From: a bacterium
Lineage (GTDB): Bacteria > Patescibacteriota > Microgenomatia > UBA12405
Length of the DNA stretch: 47,269 nucleotides
Assembly: GCA_021817905.1 (NCBI GenBank)
Contig: JAKAFM010000007.1
Span: forward strand, 1 to 47,269
Direction: 5' to 3'
The translations under genes were made by a program, and so were the position numbers. This document shows, piece by piece, positions 18,024 through 35,374 of the stretch; the stretch's first letter is position 1, and each line of letters starts with the position of its first letter. Under the pieces are notes generated by a model. That model was not told the origin of the DNA, did no database searches, and saw only the letters and a program-made list of their open reading frames with translations.

Positions 18024-18776
18024 TTATTGCAATTCAAACACCACCGTCACTTGTTTAAGCATCACTGTTCCACCAGGAACTAACGGCACTCCTCCGCCCC
18101 CCATTCCTTTTTCCATTCCCATCCCATAGTTGACTGGATTTTGAATCGTCACTCCTTCAGTCACACTCAAAATCTTTCCCAACTTCAATCCTCCAGTACT
18201 TGCCATTTCTGTCGCCTTTGTTCTGGCATCTTTAATGGCATCATCAATTAGACTATTAGATACCTCCGACGAATCATTAACACTAAAATTCGGTCCATAA
18301 ACATTATTAGCTCCCGAGGCAGCCAACAGTGCCGCCAAATCAGAGACCTTGCTCACGTCACGTAGAGTAATATCCACTGAATTATTAACCGACCATTGCC
18401 CCGGACGCATCTTTTGTCGCCCGTTATCATAATATTGCTCCTGATTTTGGTAATAACTTAAATTTTGCGTTTTTATATCTTCATCCTTAATACCAAATTT
18501 CTTTAATGCTTCCAACAAAGCTTCTGTTTTTGCATTGACTTCTTTAATTGCTGCTTCCTTGTCATCCATCACCGCTCCAATCCCAGCGCTAAACGTTGCC
18601 AATTGACTGACTTGACTGGTTCTGGCTTCACCAACAACCGTTACCGTCCGTCCTGGAACCGTTTGGATACTTCCCCAATTCATCCGACTCCACGGCATAA
18701 TTCTTACCCCTACCAATAATACCAACCCCAAAACAGTCGACGCCACAATAACCAGCTTTACAGACAGTGATTTCAT
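18024..18776 (-). CDS. SIMPL-domain (DUF541) protein
   Basis: TVTVVGEARTSQVSQLATFSAGIGAVMDDKEAAIKEVNAK...LIDDAIKDARTKATEMASTGGLKLGKILSV. Confidence 0.85.
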   Translation of the reverse strand: MKSLSVKLVIVASTVLGLVLLVGVRIMPWSRMNWGSIQTVPGRTVTVVGEARTSQVSQLATFSAGIGAVMDDKEAAIKEVNAKTEALLEALKKFGIKDEDIKTQNLSYYQNQEQYYDNGRQKMRPGQWSVNNSVDITLRDVSKVSDLAALLAASGANNVYGPNFSVNDSSEVSNSLIDDAIKDARTKATEMASTGGLKLGKILSVTEGVTIQNPVNYGMGMEKGMGGGGVPLVPGGTVMLKQVTVVFELQ

Positions 18777-19323: not shown

Positions 19324-20340
19324 TCAACTACTCCAATCAATTTTTACTTTACACTGCGAACAAATGGTCTCATTAGATTTAACTTCTGCACCACACAAGG
19401 GACAAAAATACTTACCATTCTCTTTTTTAGTCGGCGTCACATAAACCTCATTTCCCACCATTCTCATTCTATAGCTTTCAATCCCGCTAACGCCTCCAAC
19501 TCCATGATTACCCGCTGCCCGAACCGGAAATCCTTCCCGTCTTAAAACTTGGTAAAACACTTTCTGGTTCCCCTTAGATTCTTCCCGAGCAATTTTGACC
19601 GCTCGTAAAGCTTCTCTCTCGTGTCCAACCATTGCTTTGTTTTCTAAAAATTTCCAAACGTCTTCCATTTCCGGCATCAATTCCCGACATTTTTCCAACC
19701 ATTTTTTTTCTTCCAACCTAAATCCAATCGGCTGACATCGCAGCGATTCTATATCAGTTACACCTTCCATACTTTTACCACCTTGTTGTAATAACAGCTT
19801 TCCCAAACTCAAACATTGCTCTTGACTCCACTGAATTACTAAAGCTTCAGCATCCATATCATAGTCATCACCAATTTTATTTCCACGAACAATGTTAAGC
19901 CTCCCTTCAGGATAATAGGCATCTTTGGCACTTATCCAAAAAAGTAAATCATAGCCCTTATCAACCAAGGCATATTCGTTACGAGTTGCTTCGTATTCAG
20001 CCTCAGCATGGGGATCATAATTAGGATTTATTTCCACATCTGCCACCCCATTTTTTGACTTCATTTTATACGAAGTCGTCCGTGCCAAATCATCGCCAAT
20101 ATTCCAGTTTTCAATCACTGCCTTAGCAATTTCTTCATCAGTCATTGAATTCAAATTAACGATCTTTTTGTCGGGGCTTGTTGCTCTTTTTCGTACCACT
20201 ACCGATTCAGCTCTTGGCGCTGGCAATTGCAATGGGTTATAAACCGGTTCTGAAATCGACATCGCCGTCCGCATCACTACCAACACCACCGGGTTAACGC
20301 TAACTTTTTGCTGACTAATATCAATTTCGATTCTATTCAT
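19324..20340 (-). CDS. hypothetical protein with C-terminal zinc ribbon
   Basis: CPLCGAEVKSNETICSQCK; start MNRIEIDI at 20340 within the 20355 ORF. Confidence 0.65.
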   Translation of the reverse strand: MNRIEIDISQQKVSVNPVVLVVMRTAMSISEPVYNPLQLPAPRAESVVVRKRATSPDKKIVNLNSMTDEEIAKAVIENWNIGDDLARTTSYKMKSKNGVADVEINPNYDPHAEAEYEATRNEYALVDKGYDLLFWISAKDAYYPEGRLNIVRGNKIGDDYDMDAEALVIQWSQEQCLSLGKLLLQQGGKSMEGVTDIESLRCQPIGFRLEEKKWLEKCRELMPEMEDVWKFLENKAMVGHEREALRAVKIAREESKGNQKVFYQVLRREGFPVRAAGNHGVGGVSGIESYRMRMVGNEVYVTPTKKENGKYFCPLCGAEVKSNETICSQCKVKIDWSS

Positions 20341-20423
20341 ACTCGTTGCTCGCAAGATTTTTGGCTCGGACTATCACCGTAGCGGCACTGTCAGGGAATT
20401 CCACCCTTGTTCTGATTAATTAC
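20341..20423 (-). promoter_or_regulatory. Cobalamin-riboswitch-like RNA element (compact or partial)
   Basis: Minus strand GGGTGGAATTCCCTGACAGTGCCGCTACGGTGATAGTCCGAGCCA resembles the B12-element core GGTGnAAnTCC...RCnGnCCCGCnACnGTnA...CCGAnnGCCAC; core 20362-20406. Confidence 0.45.
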
Positions 20424-20900
20424 TTACTTTATGCTTCTCCCCAACATAAATAAATAATCAGACAGTCGATTAATAAAAATTAAAACAGTTTTCTCAACCG
20501 GTTGAGTTTTAGCAAGTGTCACCAAACTCCTCTCCGTCCTCCGACACACAGTTCGTGACCAATTAAGCCACACATTCAAACCACTTCCTGGCAACAAAAA
20601 ATTATGTAATTTTTCCATTTCACTTTCCATTTTCTCTATATCTTGCTCAAGAAATTTTATAGATTCACTCAAATCAATTTTTTTATTATATCCAGCCAAA
20701 TACCCCGACAAATAATACAGTTCTTTATTAGTTTTTTCGGTTATTTTTTTTATACCACTTACCTCCTCTCCAACAATTCCCACCGCCGCCATCAACTCAT
20801 CCAAGTCGCCAATTGCTTCGAGTAGTGGACCATCTTTGTCCACTACTCGTCCCATCCATCGGCTCTTGCCATCATCACCCCTTTTGGTTGTCACTGACAT
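20424..20900 (-). CDS. PduO-type ATP:cob(I)alamin adenosyltransferase
   Basis: MSVTTKRGDDGKSRWMGRVVDKDG..EAIGDLDELMAAVG...LPGSG...CRRTERSLV...NRLSDYLFMLGR. Confidence 0.85.
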   Translation of the reverse strand: MSVTTKRGDDGKSRWMGRVVDKDGPLLEAIGDLDELMAAVGIVGEEVSGIKKITEKTNKELYYLSGYLAGYNKKIDLSESIKFLEQDIEKMESEMEKLHNFLLPGSGLNVWLNWSRTVCRRTERSLVTLAKTQPVEKTVLIFINRLSDYLFMLGRSIK

Positions 20901-20901
20901 A

Positions 20902-23370
20902 TTAGCTACATTTACTATAACCACAAAATTGATTGCTACATTTAAAGCAGCCCTCCTCGGCATACAAAGGACTGCCGCAATCGGGGCAAGCACTAAATTT
21001 GCTCTCCGACACTGCCTGCTGAACATGCAATTCGTTCAACACTAACTGTTGCTGGTTACTCCCTTCAATCGGCACCGGCATCGTCAACCCCTCTTTTTCC
21101 TCCCGAAATAAATGCAATTGCTCTCCTCGGGAAATCTCTAAAAGCGATTTTCCAACTGCATCAAACATACTCAAAATCGTTCCCATCCCCATTCCCACTT
21201 TTGTCCCACAGTTAATCCCCACTAACTCATCCGCAATTTCATCAAGACTGGCACCATATTTCAAAGCCAGCGACGACAATCGGCCGGTTACCTCTGAGGC
21301 CCCCGCCATATATCCCCCACTTTTACCTAAATTAACAAACACTTCTACTGGTCCATCTCCGGCCTCAAAAAACACTGAAGTATAAACCTTTCCAACGTCA
21401 CAAACTTTACGCAATCGAACACCGCGTGCCGCCTCTGGTGTCGCTTTCTTTTTAGTCGGCACTAACGCTGCTACTTCAATTTTAGACTTTACCGGTTGTA
21501 TTATTTCTTTCTCTCGCGAACCGGATCGGTAAATGGTAATCCCCTTAGTTCCCAACGAATATGCCAACAAGTAAGCTTTGCGCACTTCCTCCACACTCGC
21601 CTCTTTCGGGAAATTAATTGTTTTTGAAACCGCATTATCCGTATGTTCTTGAAAAGCTGCTTGAATCTTCACGTGCCATACCGGCTCAATTTCCAAAGCC
21701 GTTCTAAACACATTTTTAATATCATCCGGAATTTCATCGATCCCATCCAACTTACCACCATTCTTTACAATTTTTGCCAACAACTGATCATTATAGAGGT
21801 CTCTCTTTTTTAGAACATCAACAAAAATCGGGTTAACAATATAAAGCGTTTTTCCCTCCACGGTATTCTTTTGATACCCCAAACTAAACATTGGCTCAAT
21901 CCCCGAGGAAGCGTCAGCAATCATACTAATCGTTCCCGTCGGTGCAATAGTCGTCAACGCCATATTACGCGGTCGATAATCGCTTCCCGCAAAAACACTA
22001 TCGTTCCATACCGGAAAAACCCCTCGACTTTTCGCTAGTTCCACCGATGCCTCCCGAGCTGCTTGGTCAATAAAACTCATTACTTGTTTCGACCATTTCA
22101 CTCCTTCCTCCGAATCGTAACGAACCCCTAATTTGAAAAGAAGATCAGCAAAGCCCATTACTCCCAATCCAATCCTTCTAAAATTACTCACCGTTACTCG
22201 AATTTGCGGCACCGGAAACTCATTAATTTCCACCACGTTATCCAAAAAATGTATTGCTAACTGGGTCACTCGCTTAAGCTCCGCCCAATCAACATCTCCT
22301 TCTTTAAAAAACCTCGCCACATTAATACTTCCCAAATTACAAGCATCATAAGGCAATAATGGTTGTTCACCGCAGGGATTAGTTGCCTCAATTCTCCCTA
22401 GTTTAGGTACCGGGTTAGATCGACTCTCGTTCATCCGATCAATAAACACCAATCCCGGATCACCATATTGCCATGCCAATCTCGTTACTAAGTTAAAAAC
22501 CTTGTATGCGTTTAACTTCATCGTCACCTGGCCATTGCGGGGGTTAATCAAAGCATAACCCTCACCCTCGTTTTTAGCTTCGGCCCAATCATAAAGCTTT
22601 TTCACCCCCGCTTCCACATCGCGCAGACGGGCGTCAACATCACGGCTCGTTTGCGCTATTCGAATAGCTTCCACAATTTCTTCCGGAATTGAATCATCAG
22701 CCGCATACTGTTTGTCTGGAGCAATCCGTTCCATAAAAGCATTTGTTACTGCCAATGAAATATTAAAATTGGTCAAGCAAAACTCATCCAGCTTTACCAC
22801 CGCAAATCGTAATACGTCTGGATGGTCAACCGACAACATCCCCATATTTGCCCCTCGTCTCACCCCGCCCTGTTTAATTTGGGTTGTTACATCGTTATAA
22901 GCCTGCATAAATGATACCGGCCCCACCGTCGTTCCCCCACTGGAAGCAATATAATCACCACTCGGTCGCAATCGGGTAAACGAAAACCCAGTGCCCCCAC
23001 CACTTTTATGAACCTTGGCCATATCACTCATAGTCTGCAAAATTGAATCCATTGAATCTTCTATTGGCAACACGAAACAGGCCGACAATTGCTGATGCTG
23101 TTTACCAGCATTCACCAAACAAGGTGTGTTGGGAAAAAATTTCTGCTCTGCCATCATGTCATAAAATTGAATCGACGTTTCATCGACCTTTATATCGTTG
23201 GCCCCAAATCGCGACTCCCCTCCAGCCACAGCCTTCGCCACCCGCCAAAAAATATCTTTGGCATCCTCAGTTGGTTTTCCTGATTCGTCTTTCATCGCAT
23301 ACCGCGTTTCCGCGATGTAACGCGCATTTTCTGATAACTGGGGTTCTTGGAGATTTTTTTTATCGATCAT
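20902..23370 (-). CDS. nrdJ: vitamin B12-dependent (class II) ribonucleoside-diphosphate reductase
   Basis: NPCGEQPLLPYDACNLGSINVARF; APTGTISMIADASSGIEPMF; C-terminal CPDCG zinc ribbon. Confidence 0.95.
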   Translation of the reverse strand: MIDKKNLQEPQLSENARYIAETRYAMKDESGKPTEDAKDIFWRVAKAVAGGESRFGANDIKVDETSIQFYDMMAEQKFFPNTPCLVNAGKQHQQLSACFVLPIEDSMDSILQTMSDMAKVHKSGGGTGFSFTRLRPSGDYIASSGGTTVGPVSFMQAYNDVTTQIKQGGVRRGANMGMLSVDHPDVLRFAVVKLDEFCLTNFNISLAVTNAFMERIAPDKQYAADDSIPEEIVEAIRIAQTSRDVDARLRDVEAGVKKLYDWAEAKNEGEGYALINPRNGQVTMKLNAYKVFNLVTRLAWQYGDPGLVFIDRMNESRSNPVPKLGRIEATNPCGEQPLLPYDACNLGSINVARFFKEGDVDWAELKRVTQLAIHFLDNVVEINEFPVPQIRVTVSNFRRIGLGVMGFADLLFKLGVRYDSEEGVKWSKQVMSFIDQAAREASVELAKSRGVFPVWNDSVFAGSDYRPRNMALTTIAPTGTISMIADASSGIEPMFSLGYQKNTVEGKTLYIVNPIFVDVLKKRDLYNDQLLAKIVKNGGKLDGIDEIPDDIKNVFRTALEIEPVWHVKIQAAFQEHTDNAVSKTINFPKEASVEEVRKAYLLAYSLGTKGITIYRSGSREKEIIQPVKSKIEVAALVPTKKKATPEAARGVRLRKVCDVGKVYTSVFFEAGDGPVEVFVNLGKSGGYMAGASEVTGRLSSLALKYGASLDEIADELVGINCGTKVGMGMGTILSMFDAVGKSLLEISRGEQLHLFREEKEGLTMPVPIEGSNQQQLVLNELHVQQAVSESKFSACPDCGSPLYAEEGCFKCSNQFCGYSKCS

Positions 23371-23819
23371 GTATGTTCCGCTTTAAAACTTTTAACTATT
23401 TTTTCAAATTCCTCAATTTTAGTAATATCCATATAAACAGTCGCAAATCGGATATAAGCCACAGGGTCGACTTCTTTAAGCCTTTCCATCACCATCTTCC
23501 CAATTTCCTTTGACGGAATTTCTACACTATTCCAATTAAGTAATTTCATTTCGATCGTGTCAACCAACTTCGACCGCTCATCATTTGTCAATCTCCATGC
23601 CGCCTTCTCAAAACATCGCTCCAACTTTTCTCGTTCGTAATCTTCCACCCGGCCGTCTTTCTTGAGAACTTTTAACTCAATATTTCCCACCCGTTCATAG
23701 GTCGTAAACCGTTTACTACATTTAATGCACTCCCGCCTCCGTCGGGTCACCTTCCCATCCTCCGCATCGCGGCTCTCCAAAACATTTGATTCATCAAAAG
23801 CACAATATGGACATTTCAT
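23367..23819 (-). CDS. nrdR: transcriptional repressor NrdR
   Basis: MKCPYCAFDESNVLESRDAEDGKVTRRRRECIKCSKRFTTYERV. Confidence 0.97.
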   Translation of the reverse strand: MKCPYCAFDESNVLESRDAEDGKVTRRRRECIKCSKRFTTYERVGNIELKVLKKDGRVEDYEREKLERCFEKAAWRLTNDERSKLVDTIEMKLLNWNSVEIPSKEIGKMVMERLKEVDPVAYIRFATVYMDITKIEEFEKIVKSFKAEHT

Positions 23820-35160: not shown

Positions 35161-35188
35161 TTGCTTTGATGCCATTCTCATGTATAAT
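35161..35188 (+). promoter_or_regulatory. Putative rplJ promoter TTGCTT-16-TATAAT
   Basis: Boxes at 35161-35166 and 35183-35188. Confidence 0.55.
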
Positions 35189-35194
35189 ACCTTT

Positions 35195-35282
35195 ACTTCC
35201 GAAGACAGTAGGTGCCAAACTAAATCCTACCGAGGGTAAATAGCCTTTTATTGCTGTTCCTCGCATCGTCGGGGAACTTTTT
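35195..35282 (+). promoter_or_regulatory. Ribosomal protein L10 leader with attenuator-like terminator
   Basis: CCGAAGACAGTAGGTGCC...ATCCTACCGAGGG motif; hairpin GTTCCTCGCATCGTCGGGGAAC (35256-35277) plus TTTTT. Confidence 0.8.
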
Positions 35283-35374
35283 AGTTTAAATAGGTCTAAA
35301 TTTGAACCGCAGGGCCAAATTTTGCCTATTTACACAATCCGTCTCAGACGGATATTACACAAATAAATACAATC

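Follow-up and report, generated by a model that had tools for sequence, protein, structure and literature searches.

We analyzed a 47,269-nt stretch of DNA from a Shapirobacteria-like bacterium (GenBank assembly GCA_021817905.1, contig JAKAFM010000007.1, positions 1 to 47,269; here called the window), in which nrdR, nrdJ, pduO, and an orphan gene, X, form an apparent operon. In the leader of X, inside this operon, lies an RNA element that we read, with a probability of about 85%, as a compact class-II-type cobalamin (AdoCbl-II-like) riboswitch controlling X. The riboswitch class is a known one, of which the element is a variant; what is new is the link, throughout a bacterial class, between such riboswitches and one orphan gene. 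The genomes of candidate-phyla bacteria are tiny, and little is known of the ways in which cofactors such as vitamin B12 are obtained and rationed there. With a riboswitch fixed before it across a class, an orphan family becomes linked to B12, and experiments can address its function directly. A literature search, mostly of open-access papers and without Rfam's hit lists, turned up no description of cobalamin riboswitches in such bacteria.

Covariance models point to an AdoCbl-II-like element

An initial annotation of the window had quoted a minus-strand sequence resembling the cobalamin riboswitch core and placed it between a PduO-type stop codon and a zinc-ribbon gene, downstream of nrdJ. 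That sequence is present there, at positions 20408-20361, flanked by the stop codon of pduO (20424-20426) and the start codon of X (ATG at 20340). A default Rfam scan gave nothing above a gathering cut-off at this site. In a relaxed scan of 401 bases with all Rfam models, AdoCbl-II (RF01689) aligned over its full length (model positions 1-81 of 81) to 20427-20352 on the minus strand with 34.0 bits, under its cut-off of 36.5 bits, and an E value of 2.1e-6; over the 817-kb genome, the same model had this one match only (E = 1.0e-6). Relatives at the same site within the host family score 37 to 47 bits. RF00174 matched the same spot with 18.5 bits (E = 0.005; cut-off, 31.5) and was rejected as the family of the element. 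These covariance-model searches, together with the kept position, the covariation, and the cobalamin riboswitches before the same gene family elsewhere in the class, make a divergent, compact cobalamin riboswitch, as first annotated, the best-supported reading. The annotation had not included a 3′ hairpin, P13/L13 (20356-20342, minus strand), which would form a kissing loop with L5. The parts of the element, all on the minus strand, are as follows.

20352..20427, minus strand: aptamer region according to the Rfam AdoCbl-II alignment (RF01689, 34.0 bits), overlapping the pduO stop
20404..20407, minus strand: P4 5′ strand, AGGG; covaries (AU/UA/CG/GC), 100% paired
20393..20396, minus strand: P4 3′ strand, CCCU; from hand-parsed loci and the model alignment
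20388..20389, minus strand: P5 5′ strand, AG (UG in sister sequences); UA in 15 and AU in 12 of 28
20383..20387, minus strand: L5 loop, UGCCG, one half of the kissing loop; complementary to L13 across 36 loci
20381..20382, minus strand: P5 3′ strand, CU; from the model alignment
20377..20379, minus strand: P6 5′ strand, CGG; CGG/CCG, CCG/CGG, CUG/CAG, GGG/CCC, and UCG/CGA occur
20367..20369, minus strand: P6 3′ strand, CCG; from hand-parsed loci and the model alignment
20353..20356, minus strand: P13 5′ strand, CUUG; all four pairs changed on both sides among relatives
20346..20352, minus strand: L13 loop, CGAGCAA; CG[A]GCA pairs with L5, the A being bulged
20342..20345, minus strand: P13 3′ strand, CGAG; stops 1 nt short of the AUG of X

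Core helices and the L5-L13 kissing loop covary

Helices were parsed by hand in 36 loci and checked against the DNA, and 28 distinct rows were aligned with a model. In the hand-parsed loci P4, P5, P6, and P13 are paired almost always, with many types of compensatory change. Among the model-aligned rows 94.8% of cells are paired, versus 80.9% in shuffles; two-sided changes number 68 versus 22.6, and the covariation score is 0.378 versus 0.137. None of 500 shuffles was as high on pairing, two-sided changes, or covariation score, and sliding the partners brought pairing down to 32 to 49%. The P4/P5/P6 core has 98 to 100% of its cells paired, with two-sided changes present. An alignment made with a model leans towards that model; the hand-parsed set agrees with it.

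All five L5-L13 pairs form in 33 of the 36 loci, and 95.1% of the corresponding cells are paired in the model-aligned set. Three loci carry compensatory changes: GGCCG/CGAGCC in L008 and L052 (U-A to G-C) and UACCG/CGAGU in L020 (G-C to A-U); in L032 one pair is mismatched. The CCCGC-to-GCCGC change that the initial annotation listed as a deviation from the consensus is indeed in the sequence. As aligned here it is not a mere deviation, since it falls in loop L5 and is compensated by L13. This complementarity shows why plain consensus scanning underrates such elements.

P13 lies over the translation start of X. In the window it ends 1 nt 5′ of the ATG, and in L036, L042, and L044 the ATG of X is within the stem. 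Among members of the class (L080 and L009, for example) the P13 strand reads GGA and resembles a Shine-Dalgarno sequence. By itself P13 is weak (−1.3 kcal/mol), as expected for a stem that depends on the kissing loop. In several members of the host family (L045, L052, L053, L057, and L037) the riboswitch is enlarged by big hairpins inserted into L4, into L6, or beside L13.

The element accompanies X in the host family and across the class

RF01689 matched in 61 of 96 relatives, 25 of them over the cut-off. A covariance model of our own, R1, made from 15 sequences of the family and the class, found the element in 29 of 35 genomes of the host family (Candidatus Shapirobacteria, according to named loci) at E < 1e-4, and a thirtieth match (G006, E = 0.004) lies directly behind its pduO gene. 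In the window's own genome a further R1 match, at 24251-24186 on the minus strand (10.8 bits, E = 0.16), was judged to be chance. The order nrdJ-pduO-RNA-X is kept in about 30 of the 35 genomes, and the inspected matches lie between pduO and X, except in G009. Orthologous intergenic regions, where the initial annotation proposed to look for conservation and covariation, hold both, the latter strongly. Presence of the RNA tracks that of NrdJ and PduO, whose genes adjoin it in the window: four family genomes (G001, G008, G020, and G031) have neither protein and no significant match, G008 being 97% complete. The pduO gene of G007 borders the end of its contig. One genome, G009 (80% complete), departs from the pattern: NrdD is present, NrdJ and PduO were not detected, and X with its riboswitch (L008; G009:C61 9589-9685) follows an NrdG2-like gene. 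The NrdD match in that genome (G009:C22 544-3312) is split, with about 1 kb separating its two parts, and shows in-frame stops; an intervening sequence may be the cause. One further family copy (L132; G032:C15 5591-5653) keeps P6, L13, and P13 and is without P4; it is either decayed or an assembly error.

Outside the host family we assembled 26 X loci picked by protein similarity alone. Riboswitches played no part in the choice, save that L096 and L103 had first been seen in the RF01689 search; L096 (the same as L027) also gave one R1 sequence, and several proteins from the 26 loci are in profile A8, so that the set is not independent of those tools. A match to an Rfam cobalamin-clan model (E ≤ 0.05) was present in 23 of the 26, and an R1 match in 24, the addition being L078. 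In L087 a riboswitch with large inserts is visible by eye, in L103 the riboswitch is 5′ of pduO with X behind pduO, and in L102, a pduO-X operon, none was found in the stretch examined. In most of the 26 loci neither pduO nor nrdJ neighbors X. Leaders of the RF00174 or RF01482 type precede X homologues from the other families of the class.

The same riboswitches also precede other genes. In L012 (G087, 1501-2873) the target is an ATP-cone protein followed by fragments of a class I ribonucleotide reductase (RNR) small chain, apparently split into two open reading frames; in L018 and L009 the targets are DUF4430 and DUF6580 proteins, the former of which we take to resemble the C-terminal domain of transcobalamin. 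In L009 (459-1580, G074) a DUF4430-DUF6580 pair that follows pduO is flanked by two AdoCbl-II riboswitches with a spacing of about 1 kb; the arrangement may be a cassette for cobalamin uptake. Since these other targets are a class I RNR and DUF4430/DUF6580 genes, X very likely belongs to a B12-shortage regulon. The earlier suggestion that an uncharacterized gene is under B12 control is strengthened by the P13 at the start of X and the riboswitches before its homologues.

X is an orphan protein of the class

The genes of the apparent operon, all on the minus strand, are listed here.

19324..20340, minus strand: gene X, 338-aa orphan protein with a C-terminal zinc ribbon (domain searches); class-wide family with the riboswitch 5′ of homologues
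20424..20900, minus strand: PduO-type cobalamin adenosyltransferase (PF01923, E = 2.7e-37; TIGR00636)
20902..23370, minus strand: NrdJ, B12-dependent RNR (TIGR02504, 661.6 bits)
23367..23819, minus strand: NrdR-like repressor, first gene of the apparent operon (PF22811 and PF03477)

In X, only the C-terminal zinc ribbon was recognized by Pfam, NCBIfam, PHROGs, and PADLOC, and comparison with PDB sequence profiles gave nothing beyond it. Two AlphaFold2 models, good over the core, had no PDB fold match at E ≤ 0.001, and the first of them had no viral match. A profile of X found the family in 45 of 281 genomes of the class at E ≤ 0.001, some weaker matches being to the zinc ribbon only, and no true match outside the class in a sample of the phylum. 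A single match fell in another class (G624, L104); its sequence is that of a prolyl-tRNA synthetase, and we rejected it as a chance match to the zinc ribbon. On these searches X counts as a class-level orphan family. Downstream of the riboswitch in four loci from other families of this class (L009, L020, L025, and L013) lie long riboswitch-controlled proteins that the X profile missed; some contain a similar S-P-P-G-like stretch, and they are possibly remote relatives.

NrdJ is the sole RNR large subunit detected in the genome of the window; no other B12-binding domain (PF02310) and no DUF4430 were found there. The gene next after X (18024-18776, minus strand) encodes a SIMPL (DUF541) protein, and similar genes follow X in several relatives. 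Elsewhere in the window, RF00557 matches 35181-35292 on the plus strand with 55.4 bits, over its cut-off; this is the ordinary autoregulatory leader of ribosomal protein L10.

Proposed mechanism and alternative explanations

In Escherichia coli btuB and in env8HyCbl, an L5-L13 kissing loop stabilizes P13 and translation is blocked; in env8HyCbl the loop has a bulge (PMC10653944). By analogy, the element looks like an OFF switch on X translation. Bound adenosylcobalamin (AdoCbl), most likely the ligand given the neighboring genes, would let the kissing loop hold the otherwise unstable P13 in place at the start of X, so that no X is produced; when B12 is scarce, P13 would open and X would be translated. 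The upstream nrdJ and pduO would stay outside this control. X would then be a B12-shortage protein, and our best guess is a cytosolic factor that helps to acquire, handle, or economize B12, of which NrdJ is the only detected user in the genome.

Several observations weigh against this reading. The RF01689 score falls short of the gathering cut-off, and the P3 pairs of that model are broken in the window. An outer stem P1/P3 was not above shuffled flanks, either for loci of the window's type (z = −0.9) or for the other family type (z = −1.0), and an earlier test with wider flanks found none either; the test is simple and of limited power, and for twelve class-level loci it gave z = +3.9. The candidate P1 GUAAG/CUUGC (20427-20423 with 20356-20352), a competitor of P13, did no better than shuffled flanks and was dropped. 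These results agree with the earlier remark that the usual GGGAA strand and B12 box are not obvious, and they point to a reduced aptamer without the usual closing stem. With P1/P3 undetectable in this family although the control detects it, ligand binding by such an aptamer is a supposition. Single-strand folding energy was no better than that of shuffles and was rejected as evidence. The OFF direction is deduced from position, and activating corrinoid riboswitches exist (PMC10653944). The sequence does not discriminate a preference for AdoCbl from one for methyl- or hydroxocobalamin, and the role proposed for X comes from association.

A trivial explanation could be chance resemblance in a stretch that is short and of ordinary folding energy. 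The genome-wide E value of 1e-6, the kept position, the compensatory changes, and the outcome at the protein-picked loci all speak against it, and covariation and conservation refute it in practice. It is improbable, too, that the window holds a degenerate, nonfunctional remnant confined to this one genome. Such a remnant would fit the score under the Rfam cut-off, the closing stem that was not found, and the copy without P4 in the relative G032; in the window, however, the core helices and the kissing loop are all intact, and the same reduced form is kept with covariation across the family. Similarly small odds attach to the idea that cobalamin is sensed and the effect falls on the stability of the mRNA, or on the nrdJ-pduO message upstream, and not on X translation. 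The element does lie in the 3′ region of that message, but P13 covers the start of X, and where X sits elsewhere the riboswitch goes with X and not with nrdJ or pduO.

A more serious alternative, which we regard as possible though not favored, accepts the cobalamin riboswitch and gives X another role, that of a B12-sparing or growth-control protein that replaces B12 in nucleotide supply when NrdJ is without cofactor. X sits in RNR operons of the host family; G087 has the same riboswitch type before the ATP-cone protein and the small chain of a class I RNR; in G009, where NrdD is present and neither NrdJ nor PduO was detected, X and the riboswitch come after the NrdG2-like gene. Against such a role, X stands alone, away from RNR genes, in most of the remaining class, it has no similarity to any RNR part, and the DUF4430 and DUF6580 targets look like uptake genes. 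Having weighed these, we retain a compact AdoCbl-II-like riboswitch that would act on X translation. Its boldest extension is that a cobalamin aptamer free of a closing stem and held by L5-L13 controls a class-wide orphan family that is the main B12-starvation effector of these ultra-small bacteria; the fold of this family would be absent from the PDB, and its role in obtaining, handling, or substituting for B12 would be a new one. Taken as a whole, we consider this rather unlikely.

Comparison with known systems

The window element shares with AdoCbl-II (RF01689) a full-length match, the P4-P5-P6 core, the AGUCCGAGC joining region, and the lack of a large periphery. It differs in its score just under the cut-off, in the broken P3 pairs of the model, and in having no outer stem above chance in the family, and some relatives differ further by inserts in L4, in L6, or flanking L13. 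Like class II riboswitches of the env8HyCbl type, it has a bulged L5-L13 kissing loop and a P13 over the translation start (PMC10653944), whereas its L5 is UGCCG against the consensus UCCCG, its ligand is a putative one, and P1/P3 was not detected. RF00174 and the AdoCbl family RF01482 belong to the same clan and are the types found in the leaders of X homologues in other families of the class; to RF00174 the window itself scores below the cut-off. Control of a B12-independent RNR by a B12 riboswitch likewise ties a cobalamin riboswitch to ribonucleotide reduction, as with the class I RNR small chain of G087; in the window, by contrast, the RNR is itself B12-dependent and the apparent target is an orphan zinc-ribbon protein.
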